64,000 nt of DNA from Kyrpidia spormannii (GTDB taxonomy: Bacteria > Bacillota > Bacilli > Kyrpidiales > Kyrpidiaceae): NCBI RefSeq assembly GCF_002804065.1, contig NZ_CP024955.1:1364001-1428000 (forward strand). The letters run 5' to 3'. The translations under genes and the position numbers were made by a program. Under the pieces are notes generated by a model. The model searched no databases and had not been told where the DNA came from. It saw only the letters and a list, made by a program, of their open reading frames with translations. This document shows positions 9,632 through 62,068 of this stretch, in pieces (positions within the stretch are counted from its first letter, which is position 1; each line of letters starts with the position of its first letter).

Positions 9632-12600
9632 ATGCAAGAGATTCGTCCATTCTCGAAGCTCCTCGTCGCCAACCGCGGAGAGATCGCCATCCGCGTCCTT
9701 CGGGCGGCGACGGAGCTTGGCATTCATACGGTCGCGATTTATTCCAAGGAAGACAGCCTGGCACTGCATCGCTATAAGGCGGACGAGGCCTACCTCATCG
9801 GGGAAGGCAAGGGGCCCGTGGAGGCATACCTCGACATCGAAGGCATCATCGCCTTGGCGAAGCGGTTAGAGGTCGACGCCATCCACCCGGGTTATGGATT
9901 TTTAGCCGAGAATGCTCATTTCGCCGCTCGTTGCGAAAAAGAGGGCATTGCGTTTATCGGGCCGCGGCCTCAGCATCTGGAAGCTTTCGGGGATAAGGTG
10001 ACGGCCCGCCAGATGGCGGTGGACGCGGGACTGCCGGTGATTCCCGGCACCCCGGAACCTGTGCGCCAACTCCAGGACGCCCTGCGATTCGCCCGGGAGC
10101 ACGGCTTTCCTTTGATTGTGAAGGCTGCTGCCGGGGGCGGCGGCCGGGGCATGCGGGTGGTGCGCCACAAGGAAGATCTGGAAGAGGCCCTGAGCCTGGC
10201 CCGTTCAGAAGCGGAAAAGTCTTTCGGGGACGGCACGGTGTATCTTGAAAAATTCCTGGAGCACCCGAAACACATCGAGGTGCAGATCCTGGGGGACCGG
10301 CACGGCAATCTGGTGCACTTATTCGAGCGGGACTGCTCGATCCAGCGCCGTCACCAAAAGGTGGTGGAAATCGCCCCGGCCCTGACGTTGACCGAGCCCC
10401 AGCGCCAGGCGATTTGCGACGCGGCCCTCCGGCTGATGCGCCGGGCGGGATACGTCGGCGCCGGAACGGTGGAATTCCTGGTGGCCCCGGACGGGTCGTT
10501 CTATTTTATCGAAGTGAATCCGAGGATCCAGGTGGAGCACACGATCACCGAACTGATCACCGGCGTGGATTTGGTGCAGGCCCAAATCCTCGTCGCCCAA
10601 GGGTACCGCTTAGATGACCCGGCCATCGGCATCCGGAGTCAGGAGTCGATCCACCGCCGGGGCTATGCGATCCAATGCCGGGTGACCACTGAAGATCCGG
10701 ACAATCATTTTGTCCCCGATACGGGCAAAATCCTCGCGTACCGCAGTGCGGCGGGGTTCGGGATCCGCCTGGACAGCGGCAACGGCTACGCCGGGGCGGT
10801 GATTCAACCATACTACGATTCCCTGCTGGTCAAAATCTCCGCTTGGGCCCTGACGTTCGAAAGCGCGGCCCACAAGATGCTGCGTTCCCTTCGGGAGTTT
10901 CGCATCCGGGGGGTCAAGACGAACATCCCCTTTCTCGAAAATGTCGTCCAGCATCCGGATTTTCTCGCCGGGCGGTGCGATACCTCGTTCATCGACGGAC
11001 ATCCGGAGCTGTTCCGGACGGCAAAAAAGCGGGACAGGGGGACCAAATTACTGCAGTTTATCGGGCGGACCACGGTGAACGGCCACCCCGGCATCAAAAA
11101 ACCTGAGAAAAAACCGCGGTTTCGGCAGGCTTTGGTTCCGGATTTTCCCGATGTGGCCCCAAGTGAAGCCAAGGGGATCCTGGACCGGGAGGGGCCCGAG
11201 GCCCTGGCGCGCTGGGTGATGGAGCAAAAGCCCCTTTTGGTGACCGACACGACGTTCCGTGATGCCCATCAGTCCCTTTTGGCGACCCGGGTGCGGACCC
11301 AGGATTTGCTCCGGGTGGCGGAGGCGACGGCTAAGGGGCTTCCCCAGCTTTTTTCGTGGGAGATGTGGGGCGGCGCCACCTTCGATGTGGCGATGCGATT
11401 CTTGAAGGAGTGCCCTTGGGAGCGCCTTGCCCGGATGCGGGAGGCGGCTCCGAACGTTCTTTTTCAGATGCTCTTTCGCGGTGCCAACGCCGTGGGATAC
11501 ACAAACTATCCTGACAACGTAATCACCGCCTTTGTGCGGGAGGCTGCCCGATCGGGAATCGACGTGTTCCGGATTTTTGACAGCCTGAACTGGCTGCCCG
11601 GGATGGAGTTGGCGATCGATGCGGTGCGTCGGGAGGGGAAGGTGGCCGAGGCGGCGCTGTGTTATACCGGGGATATCCTCGATCCGAAACGGGACAAGTA
11701 TACGCTGAAGTATTATGTAAACCTAGCGAAAAACCTTGAGCGGGCCGGGGCGAATATACTGGGGATCAAAGACATGGCCGGGCTGCTCAAACCTTATGCC
11801 GCAGAAGTCTTGATCCGGGCGCTAAAGGAAGAGATCGGCATACCGATTCACCTTCATACCCACGATACGAGCGGCAATGGCGTGGCCATGCTCCTGAAGG
11901 CCGCAGAGGCCGGGGTGGATATTGTGGATACGGCGATCAACAGCGTGAGCGGTCTGACCTCTCAACCCAGTATGGGGGCGGTGGTGGCGGCCCTGCGTTT
12001 TCAGGAGCGGGACACGGGCATCGATCTCGGGGCGGTGGACCGCTTAAGCCACTACTGGGAAGTGGTGCGGTGCTATTATGAGCCCTTTGAGAGCGGGCTT
12101 CGGGCGCCTTCCACAGATGTCTATTATCATGAAATGCCCGGTGGACAGTTTACGAATCTCCGCCAGCAGGCCGAAGCGGTGGGGCTTGGCACCCGTTGGG
12201 ATGAGGTGGTGCGGGCGTACCGGGCGGTGAACGATATGTTCGGGGATATCGTCAAGGTGACCCCCTCGTCCAAAGTGGTGGGGGATCTTGCCCTGTTTAT
12301 GGTTCAAAATGGCTGGTCCCCGGAGGATGTGATCACCCGAGGGGAGACGGTGGATTTTCCCCAGTCGGTGGTGGAGTTTTTCCGGGGGTACATCGGCCAA
12401 CCGCCGGGAGGTTTTCCGCCGGAGCTCCAGAAGGTGGTTCTCAAAGGCAAGGAACCGATCACCTGCCGGCCGGGGGAGCTCTTGGAACCTTTTGATTTTG
12501 CGGCGGCGAGGCGGCATCTGGAGGAGAAGTTTGGACGGGCCTTTTCGGATCGGGACCTGCTGTCTTATGCGCTGTATCCCCAGGTGTTTGAGGAGTTTGT

Positions 12601-13090
12601 GAGGCACAGGGAGGAATTCGGAGATGTGTCGGTACTGGACACCCCGACATTCTTCTACGGTCTGCGCCTGGGGGAGGAGATCACCGTCGATATCGAGCCG
12701 GGGAAGACGCTGATGGTGCAGCTGACCTCGGTAGGGGAACTTCGGCCGGACGGCACGCGGGTGGTTTATTTTGAACTCAACGGCACGCCCCGGGAAGTGA
12801 CGGTGCGGGACGAAAGTGCCCAAGTGCTCGTCCAAGAGCGGCGGAAGGCCAACCCCGCGGTGCCCGGGGAGATCGGGGCCACGATGCCCGGCAAAGTGAG
12901 CAAAATCATGGTAGAACCCGGGGATGAGGTCCGGCGGGGCGAGCTCCTCATGGTGACCGAGGCGATGAAGATGGAAACGGCGCTCCAAGCTCCTTTTGAC
13001 GGAGTGGTGAGGGAGGTGCTGGTGAAGGAATTGGATTCTGTGGAGGCGGGGGATTTGCTGCTGGTGATGGAGAAGGTGGCCGGGCAGTAA
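9632..13090 (+). CDS. pycA: Pyruvate carboxylase
   Basis: A full-length 1152-residue single-chain enzyme converts pyruvate, bicarbonate and ATP to oxaloacetate. Biotin carboxylase domain (about 1-460): KLLVANRGEIAIRV, glycine-rich AAAGGGGRGM. Carboxyltransferase domain (about 530-1000): VTDTTFRDAHQSLLATR, where pyruvate and metal bind. Biotin carboxyl carrier domain at the end: EAMKMETALQAP with the biotinyl Lys near 1113. ATG 9632 follows GGGAGGGGGG; an in-frame upstream extension overlaps rsfA and is not coding. With the GapB-like enzyme it supports an anaplerotic and gluconeogenic route. Confidence 0.98.
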   Translation: MQEIRPFSKLLVANRGEIAIRVLRAATELGIHTVAIYSKEDSLALHRYKADEAYLIGEGKGPVEAYLDIEGIIALAKRLEVDAIHPGYGFLAENAHFAARCEKEGIAFIGPRPQHLEAFGDKVTARQMAVDAGLPVIPGTPEPVRQLQDALRFAREHGFPLIVKAAAGGGGRGMRVVRHKEDLEEALSLARSEAEKSFGDGTVYLEKFLEHPKHIEVQILGDRHGNLVHLFERDCSIQRRHQKVVEIAPALTLTEPQRQAICDAALRLMRRAGYVGAGTVEFLVAPDGSFYFIEVNPRIQVEHTITELITGVDLVQAQILVAQGYRLDDPAIGIRSQESIHRRGYAIQCRVTTEDPDNHFVPDTGKILAYRSAAGFGIRLDSGNGYAGAVIQPYYDSLLVKISAWALTFESAAHKMLRSLREFRIRGVKTNIPFLENVVQHPDFLAGRCDTSFIDGHPELFRTAKKRDRGTKLLQFIGRTTVNGHPGIKKPEKKPRFRQALVPDFPDVAPSEAKGILDREGPEALARWVMEQKPLLVTDTTFRDAHQSLLATRVRTQDLLRVAEATAKGLPQLFSWEMWGGATFDVAMRFLKECPWERLARMREAAPNVLFQMLFRGANAVGYTNYPDNVITAFVREAARSGIDVFRIFDSLNWLPGMELAIDAVRREGKVAEAALCYTGDILDPKRDKYTLKYYVNLAKNLERAGANILGIKDMAGLLKPYAAEVLIRALKEEIGIPIHLHTHDTSGNGVAMLLKAAEAGVDIVDTAINSVSGLTSQPSMGAVVAALRFQERDTGIDLGAVDRLSHYWEVVRCYYEPFESGLRAPSTDVYYHEMPGGQFTNLRQQAEAVGLGTRWDEVVRAYRAVNDMFGDIVKVTPSSKVVGDLALFMVQNGWSPEDVITRGETVDFPQSVVEFFRGYIGQPPGGFPPELQKVVLKGKEPITCRPGELLEPFDFAAARRHLEEKFGRAFSDRDLLSYALYPQVFEEFVRHREEFGDVSVLDTPTFFYGLRLGEEITVDIEPGKTLMVQLTSVGELRPDGTRVVYFELNGTPREVTVRDESAQVLVQERRKANPAVPGEIGATMPGKVSKIMVEPGDEVRRGELLMVTEAMKMETALQAPFDGVVREVLVKELDSVEAGDLLLVMEKVAGQ

Positions 13091-13327
13091 GAGCGGAGGC
13101 TGGCGGTCTCGGTGCGGCGGGGCGATCTTCACGTGGTGAGCAGGAACGATGGAGCCGGCCGGGGGGAGGAGGCGCCCCCGCGCGAACCGCCGGGCGGCGA
13201 CACGGCCGACGGATGGCTCTGTGGATCAAAAACCGGCGCGCGGCCCAAGTTCATCGGGACAGATGTCGGTGGTAGTGGCCCCTGAATATCCTGGTTAGCG
13301 GACGCAAACCTAGGGGAAAGGGGCTGC

Positions 13328-13618
13328 GTGGGGTTGTTTGCGAGCACCTTTGATTTGGATTGGGACCTGTTGTGGCAGGATGGCTTTAAGAAAGTGAAAG
13401 AAGTGCACGACGACGATCTCGATCGGATGGAGCGGTACCTGCGGGTGTTGGACCGGATGCACGAGATGATGATGCGCCGGGAGCAGCTTTTGATGATGAT
13501 GCATTATCGCCAGGTCATGATCCGTTATAACGAGATGGCGATCACGCACATGATGCACGGCCACCATCCGTATCATCACAAGGCGATGGCCATCGCCCAG
13601 GCGCATCATCATTATTGA
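13328..13618 (+). CDS. His- and Met-rich small protein
   Basis: This 96-residue protein starts at GTG 13328 after GGGGAAAGGGG. The first half is ordinary and acidic (DLDWDLLWQDGFKKVKEVHDDDLDRMERYL). The second half is packed with Met and His: HEMMMRREQLLMMMHYR, then HMMHGHHPYHHKAM and a final HHHY. It has about 14 His and 17 Met in total. This composition suggests metal binding (Cu, Ni or Zn), but the family is not recognised. Monocistronic, with a very strong terminator downstream. Confidence 0.65.
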   Translation: MGLFASTFDLDWDLLWQDGFKKVKEVHDDDLDRMERYLRVLDRMHEMMMRREQLLMMMHYRQVMIRYNEMAITHMMHGHHPYHHKAMAIAQAHHHY

Positions 13619-55984: not shown

Positions 55985-58771
55985 ATGGACTACAGCCATA
56001 CGTTACATCTGCCGAAGACCGATTTTCCCATGAAGGGGAATTTGCCAAAGCGGGAGCCGGAGATCCAGCGGCGTTGGGAAGAGATCGGTCTGTACCGCCG
56101 ATCGGTGGAGATGCGGCGGGGACGGCCGAAGTTCATTCTTCACGATGGTCCGCCTTATGCGAATGGGAACATCCACGTTGGCCACGCCTTGAACAAGATT
56201 TTGAAGGATATGATCGTGAAATTCAAAACGATGGACGGCTTTGAAGCCCCCTATGTACCCGGGTGGGATACTCACGGTCTGCCCATTGAACACGCGATTA
56301 TCAAATCCAAGAACCTCAATCGCCACGAAATTGACGTGTTGGAGTTCCGGGAGATGTGCCGGCAATACGCTTTGGAGTACATCGACCGGCAAAAGGGGCA
56401 ATTTAAGCGTCTGGGGGTACGAGGGGATTGGGATCATCCGTATATGACCCTGGAGCCGGGTTATGAGGCCGTTCAGATCCGCATTTTTGGCGAGATGGCC
56501 AAAAAAGGTTATATCTACCAAGGCCTCAAGCCCGTCTACTGGTGTCCGTCCTGTGAAACGGCCCTGGCCGAGGCGGAGATTGAATACCGCGACAAGGTGT
56601 CACCGAGTATCTATGTAAAATTTCCCGTTGTGGACGGTCAGGGGGTCGTGGATGCAGCGGGGACCTCGGTGGTCATTTGGACGACGACGCCCTGGACGCT
56701 GGTGGCGAACCAAGCTGTGGCTCTGGGCCCGGATTTTCGCTATATTTTGGTGGAAGTGGGCAGTGAGCGATGGGTGGTGGCCAAAGACCGGTTGTCAGAC
56801 GTGCTGAAAGCCGCGGGGCGGGATCCCGGAGCAGGGCGGGTCATCAAGGAATTCGACGGCAGGGTGCTAGAGGGGGCGATTCTCCAGCATCCTTTCCATA
56901 AGGGTCGGCAGGTTCCGGTGGTGCTGGGCGATCATGTCACCCTGGATGCAGGTACCGGCGCCGTTCATACGGCTCCGGGCCACGGCATGGAGGACTATCT
57001 GGTCGGCCTCAAGTACCACCTCCCGTTAGAAGCTCCGATTGATGACCGAGGCCGTTTTACCGAGGCCGGTCAGCCGGTGGCGGGACAATTCTACGCGAAG
57101 GCCAACGATGTTTTGTGCGATCTTTTGCGCCGGGAAGGGGCCATGGTGGCCGAGGGGGAAATCCGCCACCAGTACCCGCACTGCTGGCGGTGCAAAAATC
57201 CGGTTATCTTTCGGGCCACGGAACAGTGGTTTGCCTCCATCGACAAGTTTCGTCAGGAGATGCTGGACGAGATCGAGAAGGTCCAGTGGATTCCCTCCTG
57301 GGGCAAACAGCGGATTCACAACATGGTGGCCGAACGCCAGGATTGGTGCATCTCCCGCCAGCGGGTCTGGGGGGTGCCGATCCCGATTTTTTATTGTGAA
57401 ACCTGTGGGGAAACGGTGATCGACGACCAGACCATCGACCATGTGGCTCGGTTGTTTGAGCAGCACGGCTCGCAGGTGTGGTTTGCCCGGGAGGCCAAAG
57501 ACTTGCTCCCGGAGGGCTATCGGTGCCGATGCGGCGGCGATTCGTTCCGCAAGGAAACGGACATCATGGACGTGTGGTTTGACTCGGGGTCGAGCCATAT
57601 GGCGGTGTTGGAGCGGAGGCCGGAGCTTCGCTGGCCCGCCGACATGTACCTGGAAGGATCGGACCAGCATCGGGGATGGTTCAATTCATCCCTTTCTACG
57701 GCTGTGGCGGTAAAGGGACAAGCTCCTTACCGGGCGGTGCTGACCCATGGATTCCTGTTGGACGGCGAAGGGCGCAAGATGTCCAAGAGTCTAGGGAATG
57801 TGGTGGATCCCCTGGAGGTGATGGATCGCCTGGGGGCGGATATCTTGAGGCTCTGGGTGGCGTCGGTGGATTACCGCTCGGATGCCCGGGTGTCCGACGC
57901 CATCCTGAAGCAAGTCGCCGAGGTCTATCGCAAGATCCGGAATACTTTCCGGTTTTTGCTTGGGAACTTGAACGATTTTGATCCGGCCGCCCACCGCACA
58001 TCTTACGAAAATATGACAGAACTCGACCGCTGGGCCCTGGATCAACTCCAACGGCTGGTAGAACGGACGAGTGCCGCGTATCGGAATTACGAGTTTCACC
58101 TGGTGTTTCACGCCGTGCACAATTTTTGCGCCGTTCAGATGAGCGCTTTTTACCTCGATGTGCTCAAGGACCGGTTGTATTGTAGCCGTGAGGCGGATCC
58201 GATTCGGCGGTCGGCCCAGACGGCCATGTACGAGATCCTGGTGACTCTGGTGAAATTGGTGGCTCCCATCATCAGTCACACCGCTGATGAAGTGTGGAGT
58301 TACATTCCGGGGGTAAAAGGGCCGAGCGCCCAGTTGGAGGACTGGCCCCAGGTGCGGTCCGAGTGGAAAGATGACGCCCTGATGCGCAAGTGGGAACGGA
58401 TTCTGGAGTTCCGGTACGAGGTGGCCAAGGGGTTGGAGACAGCCCGACAACAGAAGGTGATCGGCAATAGCCTCGGGGCGGCGGTGGAGGTGTGGCTCGG
58501 TCCGAGATTTGAAGACATCCGGGAAATGGCCGAGGAGCTGCCCCAGATTCTCATCGTTTCCCAAGTGTCGGTTCACGGACCGGAAGAGACGGTCCCTTCG
58601 GACGCCTTGGAATTTGAAGGAGTCAGCGTCAGAGTCACCCCCGCTCAAGGTGAAAAATGTCAGCGTTGCTGGATGGTGTTGCCTGAGGTCGGGACGGTGG
58701 AGGGTCACCCGGACCTGTGTCGGCGGTGCGCCGAGGTGGTCGATGGGCTTCCCCTTGATGACCGATCCTGA
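55985..58771 (+). CDS. ileS: Isoleucyl-tRNA synthetase
   Basis: A class I aminoacyl-tRNA synthetase of 928 residues. HIGH-type motif in PYANGNIHVGHALNK near residue 57, editing domain (TTTPWTLVANQAV; GTGAVHTAPGHGMEDY), KMSKSLGN near 600, and a C-terminal zinc finger (CQRCWMV...CRRCAEVV), which places it in the IleRS1 bacterial type. ATG 55985 after AAAGGAGG. The gene is controlled by its own promoter and attenuator. Confidence 0.97.
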   Translation: MDYSHTLHLPKTDFPMKGNLPKREPEIQRRWEEIGLYRRSVEMRRGRPKFILHDGPPYANGNIHVGHALNKILKDMIVKFKTMDGFEAPYVPGWDTHGLPIEHAIIKSKNLNRHEIDVLEFREMCRQYALEYIDRQKGQFKRLGVRGDWDHPYMTLEPGYEAVQIRIFGEMAKKGYIYQGLKPVYWCPSCETALAEAEIEYRDKVSPSIYVKFPVVDGQGVVDAAGTSVVIWTTTPWTLVANQAVALGPDFRYILVEVGSERWVVAKDRLSDVLKAAGRDPGAGRVIKEFDGRVLEGAILQHPFHKGRQVPVVLGDHVTLDAGTGAVHTAPGHGMEDYLVGLKYHLPLEAPIDDRGRFTEAGQPVAGQFYAKANDVLCDLLRREGAMVAEGEIRHQYPHCWRCKNPVIFRATEQWFASIDKFRQEMLDEIEKVQWIPSWGKQRIHNMVAERQDWCISRQRVWGVPIPIFYCETCGETVIDDQTIDHVARLFEQHGSQVWFAREAKDLLPEGYRCRCGGDSFRKETDIMDVWFDSGSSHMAVLERRPELRWPADMYLEGSDQHRGWFNSSLSTAVAVKGQAPYRAVLTHGFLLDGEGRKMSKSLGNVVDPLEVMDRLGADILRLWVASVDYRSDARVSDAILKQVAEVYRKIRNTFRFLLGNLNDFDPAAHRTSYENMTELDRWALDQLQRLVERTSAAYRNYEFHLVFHAVHNFCAVQMSAFYLDVLKDRLYCSREADPIRRSAQTAMYEILVTLVKLVAPIISHTADEVWSYIPGVKGPSAQLEDWPQVRSEWKDDALMRKWERILEFRYEVAKGLETARQQKVIGNSLGAAVEVWLGPRFEDIREMAEELPQILIVSQVSVHGPEETVPSDALEFEGVSVRVTPAQGEKCQRCWMVLPEVGTVEGHPDLCRRCAEVVDGLPLDDRS

Positions 58772-58783
58772 ACGTGCTACAAT
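58755..58783 (+). promoter_or_regulatory. Promoter of the M-box transcript
   Basis: TTGATG (58755-58760), a 17-nt spacer and TACAAT (58778-58783) with an extended TGC before it. It overlaps the last codons of ileS, and transcription should start near 58790, just before the riboswitch. Confidence 0.75.
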
Positions 58784-58806: not shown

Positions 58807-58975
58807 TCACCATCCTCGTTAGGTGAGGCGTGTGTACAAACACAGGCCACTGCCCGGAAACGTCGAAAGACGCCAATGGGTAGACCAGGGATTGCCGGAT
58901 TAAGGCTTTCCCTAAGGTGGCTGAGCATCCGGGCTCTACGTTGTACACTGCCGAAGCTCAACCAGGGGGAAGGTG
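58807..58975 (+). promoter_or_regulatory. M-box (ykoK) Mg2+ riboswitch
   Basis: The sequence carries the M-box landmarks in order: CGTTAGGTGAGGC (58817-58829), ACTGCCC (58849-58855), AAAGACGCCAATGGGTAG (58866-58883), TAAGG twice (58901-58905 and 58913-58917), GCTGAGCATCC and CTCTACG (58920-58940), and the closing ACACTGCCGAAGCTCAACC (58945-58963). P1 pairs CACCATCCTCGTT (58808-58820) with the 58960-58975 strand. M-box RNAs fold on Mg2+ and shut off Mg2+ transport genes. Here the next gene is an ABC permease. Confidence 0.93.
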
Positions 58976-59017
58976 TGCGTTTTGCGCATGGTTTCCCCCG
59001 GCTTCGGGGGTTTTTTT
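58965..59017 (+). terminator. M-box expression platform: terminator and antiterminator
   Basis: The terminator is CCCCCG-GCTT-CGGGGG (58995-59010) followed by seven T residues. The alternative antiterminator pairs GGGGGAA (58965-58971) with TTTCCCCC (58992-58999), enclosing GTGTGCG/GCGCAT. GGGGGAA is also the 3' strand of P1. So Mg2+-stabilised P1 frees the terminator (OFF) and low Mg2+ favours read-through (ON). Confidence 0.9.
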
Positions 59018-59060
59018 GTGGAGTAAAGACCATCCTGTGGGAAGAAAGGGGGAGACGGAG

Positions 59061-60770
59061 ATGCCCGCCTACGGACAGGTCCGAAAAAAGACGGCTTGGT
59101 GGGTGGATGCGGCGTTATTGGCCGGGGTGCTGGGGCTCCTGTACGGCATCGTGCAGGTGGGGAAGGGGATGGTAGAACCTTATGCGCCCCAGTCGATGAC
59201 CGTTTCCCTCGACCCTGCGGCCCTCCCATACTACGCCGGACGGAGCTTAATGCGGATGTTTTTGGCTCTCGGGGCTTCGGTGGTGTTTACGGTTTTGTAT
59301 GCCCGCCTGGCTTCCCGGAGCCGGCTGGGGGAACGCATTCTGATCCCTCTGCTCGATATTCTGCAATCGGTCCCGGTGCTCGGGTTCTTGTCAGTGACGG
59401 TGGTCGGGTTTATGGCACTGTTTCCGGGGAGTTTGTTGGGACCGGAATTGGCTTCGATTTTTGCGATATTTACCGGTCAAGTGTGGAACATGACCTTTGG
59501 GTTTTATCAATCGATTACAGGAGTCCCGAAGGAACTCCGGGAGGCGAGTCGGCTATACGGGCTCGGCGGGATCCGCCGGTTTTTCGTGTTGGATTTTGCG
59601 TACGGGGCGGTGCCGTTGGTTTGGAACAGCATGATGTCCTTTGGGGGAGGATGGTTTTTTCTCGCCGTCAGCGAGTCCATCACCGTGTTGCACCGGGATA
59701 TCCGCTTACCCGGGATCGGATCGTACATGGCGGCGGCGATGGATGAGGGAGATGTCCGAGCTCTTTTGTATGCCATGGTCACCATGGTCATCGTCATTAT
59801 TGTCGTGGATCAACTGTTCTGGCGTCCCCTGGTCGCATGGACCCAGCGCTTCAAAGTGGAGCAGACGGCGGGTCTGGATCTGCCCACTTCGTGGATGTTA
59901 ACGCTATTGCGGCGTTCCCACATTGCCGAGTGGGCCCGCCGGGTGTTTTTTGAACCGGCCTGGTCGTGGATGATTGCGGGGCGGCCCCCTCGGGCGCCTC
60001 GGATCCGGAAGCCTTCGGTGGCCAAAAAAGTCGTCTCCGCAATGATCTGGGCCGCGGTGTTTGTGGTCGTGGTGTACTGGATCATCCGGGGCGGGCTGAT
60101 GCTGAGGGAACTGGGGTGGAGAGAACTCCTTTCCCCGGTGCTTTATGGCGTACTCACTCTTCTCCGGGTGGCGGCGGCGGTGCTGCTCGGAGCGCTGTGG
60201 ACGATCCCCGTGGGCGTGTGGATCGGCACGCACCCGAAATGGTCCCGGGTGGCCCAACCGGCGGTTCTGGTGGCGGCTTCGTTTCCGGCCAATATGTTTT
60301 TTCCGCTGATTACCGCGGCTTTTTTGTCCTTGCACGTAAGCCTTGAGTGGGGATCGGTGGTACTGATGATGCTGGGAACCCAGTGGTATATCTTATTCAA
60401 TGTGATCGCCGGGGCGTCAGCCATTCCGGGCGACCTCCGGGAAGCGAGCGATTTGATGCGCCTTGGCGGATGGCGCCGATGGAGGCTGCTCATTCTGCCC
60501 GTGATTTTTCCGTCTTTGGTCACCGGGCTGGTGACGGCGGCCGGAGGGGCTTGGAACGCGAGCATCGTCGCCGAGGTGGTTTCCTGGAAGGGGACCCAGC
60601 TGGCGGCCACCGGGCTCGGGGCGTACATCACCCGGGCGACCACCAATGGCGATTGGCCGGCGATTGTCTGGGGTATTGTCGTGATGGCCGCTTTTGTCGT
60701 CGCGGTAAACCGCCTGTTGTGGAGGCGTTTGTATCGGTTGGCTGAAAACCGGTACCGGTTGGAAGTGTGA
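59061..60770 (+). CDS. Duplicated ABC transporter permease under M-box control
   Basis: A 569-residue fusion of two binding-protein-dependent transport permease domains of the NitT/TauT-like class. Each half has about six helices and an EAA loop: GVPKELREASRLYGLGGIRRF (near 155) and AIPGDLREASDLMRLGGWRRW (near 455). A hydrophilic linker (about 270-320) joins them. One polypeptide thus gives both membrane halves. ATG 59061 after AAAGGGGGAG. The Mg2+ riboswitch directly upstream argues for Mg2+ or another divalent cation rather than nitrate or taurine; substrate is inferred, not proven. Confidence 0.85.
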   Translation: MPAYGQVRKKTAWWVDAALLAGVLGLLYGIVQVGKGMVEPYAPQSMTVSLDPAALPYYAGRSLMRMFLALGASVVFTVLYARLASRSRLGERILIPLLDILQSVPVLGFLSVTVVGFMALFPGSLLGPELASIFAIFTGQVWNMTFGFYQSITGVPKELREASRLYGLGGIRRFFVLDFAYGAVPLVWNSMMSFGGGWFFLAVSESITVLHRDIRLPGIGSYMAAAMDEGDVRALLYAMVTMVIVIIVVDQLFWRPLVAWTQRFKVEQTAGLDLPTSWMLTLLRRSHIAEWARRVFFEPAWSWMIAGRPPRAPRIRKPSVAKKVVSAMIWAAVFVVVVYWIIRGGLMLRELGWRELLSPVLYGVLTLLRVAAAVLLGALWTIPVGVWIGTHPKWSRVAQPAVLVAASFPANMFFPLITAAFLSLHVSLEWGSVVLMMLGTQWYILFNVIAGASAIPGDLREASDLMRLGGWRRWRLLILPVIFPSLVTGLVTAAGGAWNASIVAEVVSWKGTQLAATGLGAYITRATTNGDWPAIVWGIVVMAAFVVAVNRLLWRRLYRLAENRYRLEV

Positions 60771-60784
60771 GAGGGGGGGCAGGG

Positions 60785-62068
60785 ATGGCTCTTCTAGAAT
60801 TGCGCCACGTGTCCAAGGACTGGGAAGTGGGTCCGGGTACTACAACGACGATCCTCAAAGATGTCTCGCTCAAAGTGGAAGAGGGGGATTTTGTCGCCCT
60901 CCTCGGCCCTTCGGGATCGGGCAAATCGACCTTATTGCGGATTATCGCCGGGTTGATTCCCCCCACCGAGGGTCAGGTCTTGTACCACGGCCGGCCGGTG
61001 GATGGGGTGGCGCCAGGAGTGGCGATGATTTTTCAAAACTTTGCCCTGTTTCCGTGGCTGACGGTGTTGGAGAATGTCGAGCTCGGGTTAGAGCGGACTG
61101 ACATGCCACCTGCGGAAAAAAGGCAGCGGGCTTTGCAAGTCATCGATATGGTGGGCTTGGACGGCTTTGAGACGGCGTTTCCGAAGGAGTTGTCCGGTGG
61201 CATGAGACAGCGGGTGGGTTTTGGCCGGGCACTGGTGGCCGAACCCGATATCCTCCTCATGGATGAACCCTTTTCGGCCCTGGACGTGTTGACCGCTGAG
61301 AATCTGCGCCGGGATCTGTTGGAATTGTGGCTTGAGAAAAAGATTCGGACCAAGGCCATCGTCCTCGTTACCCACAGTATTGAGGAGGCGGTGTACCTGG
61401 CCAGCCGGGCCGTCGTGCTTTCCCGGGACCCGGCCCAGGTGGTGACGGACATCCGAATCACTCTGCCGCACTGGCGGGATAAACAGTCCCCGACTTTTCT
61501 TTCGTTGGTCGATCAACTCTATGCCATTATCACCCGACGAACCCCCGTGGCAGAAGCGGTGCCTGCGGCGGCAAAATCGATGACCCGGGTGCCGGAGGTG
61601 CGCTCGGGTGCCCTCACGGGACTGCTGGAGCTTTTGGATGATCTGGAAAGCCGCACGGATTTGTATAAATTGGCGGACAACCTGATGCTGGATGTGGAAG
61701 ATTTTCTGCCCATTGTAGAAGGGGCCGAACTTTTGGGGTTGGTCAAGGTGGAGCACGGCGACATTGAACTGACCGACGTCGGGCGGCGGTTTGCCGACGC
61801 CAGCGTGCTGGAGAGAAAGGAAATTTTTCGCGATCTGGTGTTAAAAAAGGTCCCGACCATGGAGAAAATGTTATGGGTGCTTCAGTCAAAACGGAATAAG
61901 CAGATTGCCCGGGAATTTTTCCTGCAGATTTTCGAGCGGAGGTTCAGTCCGGAAGAGGCGGCCAAGCAACTGGATATTCTCATCGACTGGGGGCGCTACG
62001 CGGAACTGTTCGGCTATGATGAGCAGGGAGGGCGCCTGTATCTTGAAGGGGAAGAGGATGCGCCGTAA
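60785..62068 (+). CDS. ABC transporter ATPase with C-terminal AAA-associated domain
   Basis: 427 residues. The ABC domain has Walker A GPSGSGKST (41-49), Q-loop MIFQNFALFPW, signature LSGGMRQR (136-143) and Walker B ILLMDEP (156-162). After residue about 275 comes an extra 150-residue helical domain (GALTGLLELLDDLESRTDLYKLADNLMLDVEDFLPIVEGAELLGLV...) of the 'AAA-associated' C-terminal type, winged-helix-like, which could be a regulatory sensor. ATG 60785 after GAGGGGGGG. It follows the permease by 14 bases; no binding-protein gene is present. Confidence 0.88.
   Translation: MALLELRHVSKDWEVGPGTTTTILKDVSLKVEEGDFVALLGPSGSGKSTLLRIIAGLIPPTEGQVLYHGRPVDGVAPGVAMIFQNFALFPWLTVLENVELGLERTDMPPAEKRQRALQVIDMVGLDGFETAFPKELSGGMRQRVGFGRALVAEPDILLMDEPFSALDVLTAENLRRDLLELWLEKKIRTKAIVLVTHSIEEAVYLASRAVVLSRDPAQVVTDIRITLPHWRDKQSPTFLSLVDQLYAIITRRTPVAEAVPAAAKSMTRVPEVRSGALTGLLELLDDLESRTDLYKLADNLMLDVEDFLPIVEGAELLGLVKVEHGDIELTDVGRRFADASVLERKEIFRDLVLKKVPTMEKMLWVLQSKRNKQIAREFFLQIFERRFSPEEAAKQLDILIDWGRYAELFGYDEQGGRLYLEGEEDAP

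Follow-up and report, generated by a model that had tools for sequence, protein, structure and literature searches.

The single M-box riboswitch of Kyrpidia spormannii is followed directly by two genes, for a fused double permease and an ABC ATPase, and this pair very likely has a role in Mg2+ homeostasis. It is likely that the two proteins form an ATP-driven Mg2+ importer that is induced at low Mg2+, although transport, its direction and Mg2+ as the substrate are all inferred, there being no transport or expression data. The riboswitch, the architecture of its switch, the gene pair, the recurrent association with Mg2+ genes and the absence of four importer classes from profile searches are shown by the sequence. 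Mg2+ is indicated by the control region, by repeated occurrence across separate lineages, by the proximity of mgtA and mgtC, and by the failure to detect the known importers.

The M-box and its expression platform

The window, a stretch of 64,000 nucleotides of the K. spormannii chromosome (NZ_CP024955.1, positions 1,364,001 to 1,428,000), was searched with the Rfam covariance model RF00380, and a single element was aligned over all 169 model positions (148.4 bits against a gathering threshold of 44, E 9.7e-34; Table 1), with standard pairs at 45 of 46 paired positions. No other M-box is found in the complete, single-contig genome of 3.35 Mb. In unconstrained folding, the 3' strand of the aptamer at 58950-58970 is drawn into a long antiterminator that occupies the 5' arm of the terminator, and when the aptamer is enforced the terminator forms; the antiterminator is incompatible with the aptamer plus terminator, and the folding of 58940-59025 gives a z of -4.0. 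Both marks of an M-box, an aptamer score above the curated cut-off and an expression platform coupled to the aptamer, are met. The coupling itself is shown by the sequence; Mg2+-dependent control of the downstream gene is inferred.

The promoter-like site overlaps the end of the upstream gene, which we take from its translation to be ileS-like, as we take the downstream same-strand open reading frames to be spoIIAA, spoIIAB and sigF-like. Chance alone would give about one promoter-like and about five terminator-like sites over the 3.7 kb that were scanned, so the evidence for these elements lies in their position and not in the match. It was considered whether the M-box might belong to ileS; this was ruled out, as it lies after the ileS stop, has its own promoter-like site and reads into the permease gene.

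Table 1. Features of the M-box and gene pair (positions within the window)
Feature	Position	Strand	Remarks
Promoter-like site, TTGATG-17-TACAAT, TG before -10 (extended -10)	58755..58783	+	consensus match only, 9 of 12
M-box (Mg2+) riboswitch aptamer, RF00380	58808..58975	+	148.4 bits, full model
Antiterminator, built with aptamer 3' strand 58950-58970	58948..59010	+	-38.6 kcal/mol alone
Intrinsic terminator, CCCCCGGCTTCGGGGG hairpin then seven T	58995..59017	+	-12.1 kcal/mol
Fused double permease, 569 aa, two BPD_transp_1 domains; candidate Mg2+ ABC permease	59061..60770	+	
ABC ATPase, 427 aa, C-terminal AAA_assoc_C domain (PF09821)	60785..62068	+	

The permease and the ATPase

No gene lies between the M-box and terminator region and the permease, nor between the permease and the ATPase. 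The Pfam domains are clear (PF00528 at 94.3 bits for the permease, PF00005 at 121.2 bits for the ATPase), and the ATPase carries Walker A, signature and Walker B motifs (GPSGSGKST, LSGGM and LLMDEP), so that a BPD_transp_1 permease is joined to an ABC ATPase with all three motifs, as a NitT/TauT-type importer requires. No homology to CorA, MgtE, MgtA or NrmT was found for either protein in Pfam or NCBIfam. A dedicated solute-binding protein, the other mark of such an importer, is lacking: the transcription unit consists of these two genes only, and among 80 loci no binding-protein gene recurs beside the pair. Wherever the contig is long enough, the ATPase, including its C-terminal domain, comes after the permease at almost every one of these loci.

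It is possible that the pair is an ordinary nitrate, sulfonate or taurine importer with a fortuitous M-box, as annotation by family would have it, given that this broad family provides its best NCBIfam and Pfam matches. This is all but excluded: every curated NCBIfam cut-off for these substrates is missed by a wide margin (NtrB, 57 against 209 bits; SsuC, 33 against 347; taurine ATPase, 209 against 357; SaoA, 228 against 360), there is no binding protein, and the association with M-boxes and with mgtA and mgtC is a repeated one.

The initial annotation had described a full M-box with a terminator/antiterminator switch, followed by a permease and an ATPase gene with nothing between, and both claims held, the first on the covariance match that it had proposed as a check, which proved very strong, and on folding; the second is refined by the fusion of two permease domains and by the AAA_assoc_C domain.

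A monomer model of the permease (mean pLDDT 89) resembles the tandem domains of type I importers, the best matches being FbpB, CmpB and NrtB, and in a monomer model the ATPase domain resembles NrtD and CmpD. Compared with 21 NitT/TauT paralogues, the permease family has an invariant polar set of its own: D99, Q102, Q140, N143, N189, Q399, Q441, Y443 and N499. Possibly these residues line a cation path; they are compatible with one and do not prove it, the suggestion being inferred from sequence alone.

Recurrence within the class

Of the 200 class genomes sampled, 9 carry an orthologue of the permease (54-100% identity), all other matches being at or below 35% and over part of the protein. The M-box stands directly upstream in eight of the nine; in the ninth (G189) it stands before nrmT instead. 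When the 84 M-box sites of this sample were sorted by the gene that they precede, 24 went to MgtE, 18 to MgtA, 15 to CorA, 13 to NrmT, 8 to this ABC pair, 2 to RodA, 1 to MgtC and 3 to no gene, and no other ABC permease under an M-box was found among them.

The two sites before rodA, a cell-shape gene, are L170 (G066) and L180 (G159), the L170 protein scoring just above the TIGR02210 cut-off. At L189 (G076), L191 (G101) and L194 (G112) a second M-box has, under simple ORF calling, no normal-size same-strand open reading frame within about 2.5 kb downstream. With two M-boxes of the class in front of rodA and three in front of no open reading frame, an M-box alone is no proof of transport. At L182 (G164), tandem M-boxes (offsets 4 and 267) precede mgtE.

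Recurrence in other groups

Sampling of 200 genomes around Lucifera (Negativicutes) gave 19 orthologues, 14 of which are immediately preceded by an M-box that passes the gathering threshold. Chance adjacency of M-box and pair is ruled out by the counts of 8/9 and 14/19 in the two class samples.

At least 572 relatives were confirmed, and neighbourhoods were counted at 80 loci from a genome-wide scan. An M-box is present at 12 of the 80, including Arthrobacter, an Anaerolineae genome (Chloroflexota) and Tsukamurella. One further actinobacterium, from a separate sample, has an M-box before the orthologue, and in the separate actinobacterial sample three of six orthologues have a Mg2+ link. On the permease tree the presence of the M-box requires seven changes, six of them forced by well-supported branches, and therefore the association arose or was kept repeatedly.

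Thirteen of the 80 loci, one of them cut by a contig end, have mgtA and/or mgtC as neighbours, in Actinomycetota, Cyanobacteriota and Burkholderiales; such neighbours are frequent outside Bacillota, as in Amycolatopsis (two), Solihabitans, Saccharopolyspora, Kutzneria (two), Mycobacterium, Microbacterium, Nocardia, Fischerella and Rhizobacter. The order is mgtA-mgtC-permease-ATPase in Amycolatopsis and Solihabitans, M-box-mgtC-permease-ATPase in Tsukamurella and permease-ATPase-mgtA in Rhizobacter. All eight MgtA neighbours tested pass TIGR01524 (magnesium-translocating P-type ATPase) by wide margins. The count excludes the MgtA-like matches at L117 (28-31% identity), L140 (34% over 64 aa) and L067 (23%). 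The gene upstream of the M-box is corA in Paenibacillus yr247, and nrmT lies upstream in Lucifera. Altogether 26 of the 80 loci have a direct Mg2+ link, in the form of an M-box or an mgtA, mgtC, corA or nrmT neighbour. At many cyanobacterial, betaproteobacterial and other loci no M-box or Mg2+ gene was found within about 8 kb, most of the first two groups being unlinked.

Three further arrangements were observed. In Fischerella thermalis (L080) mgtA comes next after the permease, at 10722-13400, and no ATPase of the usual kind was detected within the locus. In two Burkholderiales (L087:4347-5702 and L097:50-1357) a gene for an OprB-type porin, a possible outer-membrane partner, lies directly 5' of the permease. 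Mycobacterium sp. E787 (L216-L219) has four M-boxes, before an apparent ileS, two PPE-like genes and nrmT.

The importer may instead carry another divalent cation (Mn2+, Co2+, Ni2+ or a broad range), being repressed by Mg2+ or controlled by an M-box variant tuned to another ion. In favour of this, one genome of the class (G115) has mntH some 2 kb before the M-box and pair, and M-box structures with bound Mn2+ are known (Ramesh et al. 2011, cited in PMC4072509). This is very unlikely for four reasons: the neighbours are mostly mgtA and mgtC rather than Mn2+ genes; the aptamer fits the consensus, as its score and pairing indicate; K. spormannii already has an MntH-type Nramp; and the same conflict was settled in favour of Mg2+ for NrmT (PMC4072509).

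Known Mg2+ importers in the genome

Profile searches of the complete K. spormannii genome detected no CorA, MgtE, MgtA or NrmT. CorA and MgtE were also undetected in its three nearest relatives, of which two have incomplete genomes, and no P-type ATPase of K. spormannii or of these relatives passes the MgtA cut-off. As a control, the CorA profile found its target in 14 of 14 genomes. Two candidates within K. spormannii were rejected: its P-type ATPases are only partial matches to MgtA (at most 238 bits against a cut-off of 610), and its single Nramp has the DPGN and MPH motifs of the MntH (Mn2+) type, unlike the NrmT proteins linked to M-boxes. The Nramps of the relatives were assigned by score alone.

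Across the class sample, the pair is present in 5 of the 19 genomes without CorA and MgtE and in 4 of the 181 others (Fisher p = 4.5e-4). This complementarity is weak evidence because four of the five genomes belong to one family. In three other genomes of the class (G025, G043 and G059) CorA, MgtE, an M-box and the ABC pair were all undetected.

It is also possible that the pair is a transporter induced at low Mg2+ whose cargo is not the free cation: an organic acid or phosphate that enters in complex with Mg2+, an anion needed during Mg2+ starvation, or an envelope component. The permease is nearest in sequence to the nitrate and bicarbonate permeases NrtB and CmpB, and rodA too is under an M-box in two genomes. 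MgtC, which is often encoded next to the pair, is not itself known to transport Mg2+. This reading is nevertheless unlikely for three reasons: first, of the other 76 M-box sites of the class, 71 stand in front of mgtC or the gene of a known Mg2+ transporter; second, the pair is the only M-box target in K. spormannii and its three nearest relatives, where CorA, MgtE and a P-type ATPase above the MgtA cut-off are lacking from the searches; and third, permease position 102 is Gln in 48 of 48 family members, whereas 13 of the 21 NitT/TauT paralogues have Arg there.

Comparison with known transporters

The closest precedent is NrmT, which likewise belongs to a family known for other substrates. Its M-box association first marked it as a Mg2+ importer, and experimental proof followed (PMC4072509). 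In several Alicyclobacillaceae-type genomes the M-box precedes nrmT and not the ABC pair. The two differ in that their folds are unrelated and that Mg2+ transport was shown by experiment for NrmT and is inferred for the pair. CorA, MgtE and MgtA with M-box leaders share the riboswitch and the terminator logic, and MgtA is also ATP-driven, its gene often adjoining the pair; none of the three is related to it in sequence, MgtA being a P-type ATPase and CorA and MgtE channels.

The NitT-type nitrate and bicarbonate importers NrtBCD and CmpBCD share the permease fold and the ATPase domain (22-26% and 35-38% identity, respectively, to the solved chains), whereas the pair has fused permease domains, the AAA_assoc_C domain, different invariant polar residues and no encoded binding protein. 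The top fold match of the permease model is the permease of the ferric importer FbpBC of Thermus thermophilus (PDB 9j4r), which takes up a metal cation. Its 490-residue permease chain can be aligned over almost the full length of the model, but with only 16% identity and a TM-score of 0.49, and its substrate is Fe3+.

Discussion

The initial annotation had inferred an uptake system for Mg2+ or another divalent cation, or a Mg2+-linked transporter of unknown substrate, and this is supported as a role in Mg2+ homeostasis with uptake as the likeliest activity, transport and the Mg2+ response remaining inferred. Its second check, on homologous pairs in other genomes, found them repeatedly near M-boxes or mgtA, mgtC, corA or nrmT.

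M-boxes are known to shut off their genes at high Mg2+ (PMC4072509). By this logic, at high cytosolic Mg2+ the aptamer of K. spormannii would fold and retain its 3' strand, and the terminator would halt transcription; at low Mg2+ the strand would pass to the antiterminator and the permease and ATPase genes would be transcribed. A complete type I importer would be assembled from one fused permease and two ATPase subunits, the subunit numbers being inferred. Given that no binding protein is encoded with the pair, it would work without one or use one encoded elsewhere. The pair may be the main dedicated Mg2+ importer of K. spormannii; other routes, such as symport of Mg-citrate or Mg-phosphate, are not covered by the searches.

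Among the points against the importer reading, ABC importers of type I usually depend on a binding protein, of which no conserved example accompanies the pair, and the relatives of solved structure that are nearest in sequence transport the anions nitrate and bicarbonate. No Mg2+ ABC importer of this family was found described in the open-access literature searched, in which a few titles contain phrases such as 'Mg2+ ABC transporter' once. On balance, the evidence favours a bolder reading as more likely than not, that the pair represents a further class of dedicated bacterial Mg2+ importer and the first of the ABC type, with a fused permease, a paired ATPase and no binding protein, occurring in at least five phyla and serving as the main entry of Mg2+ where the four known classes are undetected.

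If this is true, an ABC class of different architecture would be added to CorA, MgtE, the MgtA-type P-ATPases and NrmT, and a type I importer running without a binding protein would itself be unusual. A large transporter family, of the 572 or more relatives confirmed, would be re-annotated from nitrate, sulfonate and taurine transport, and the Mg2+ supply of bacteria without any detectable known importer class would be explained.
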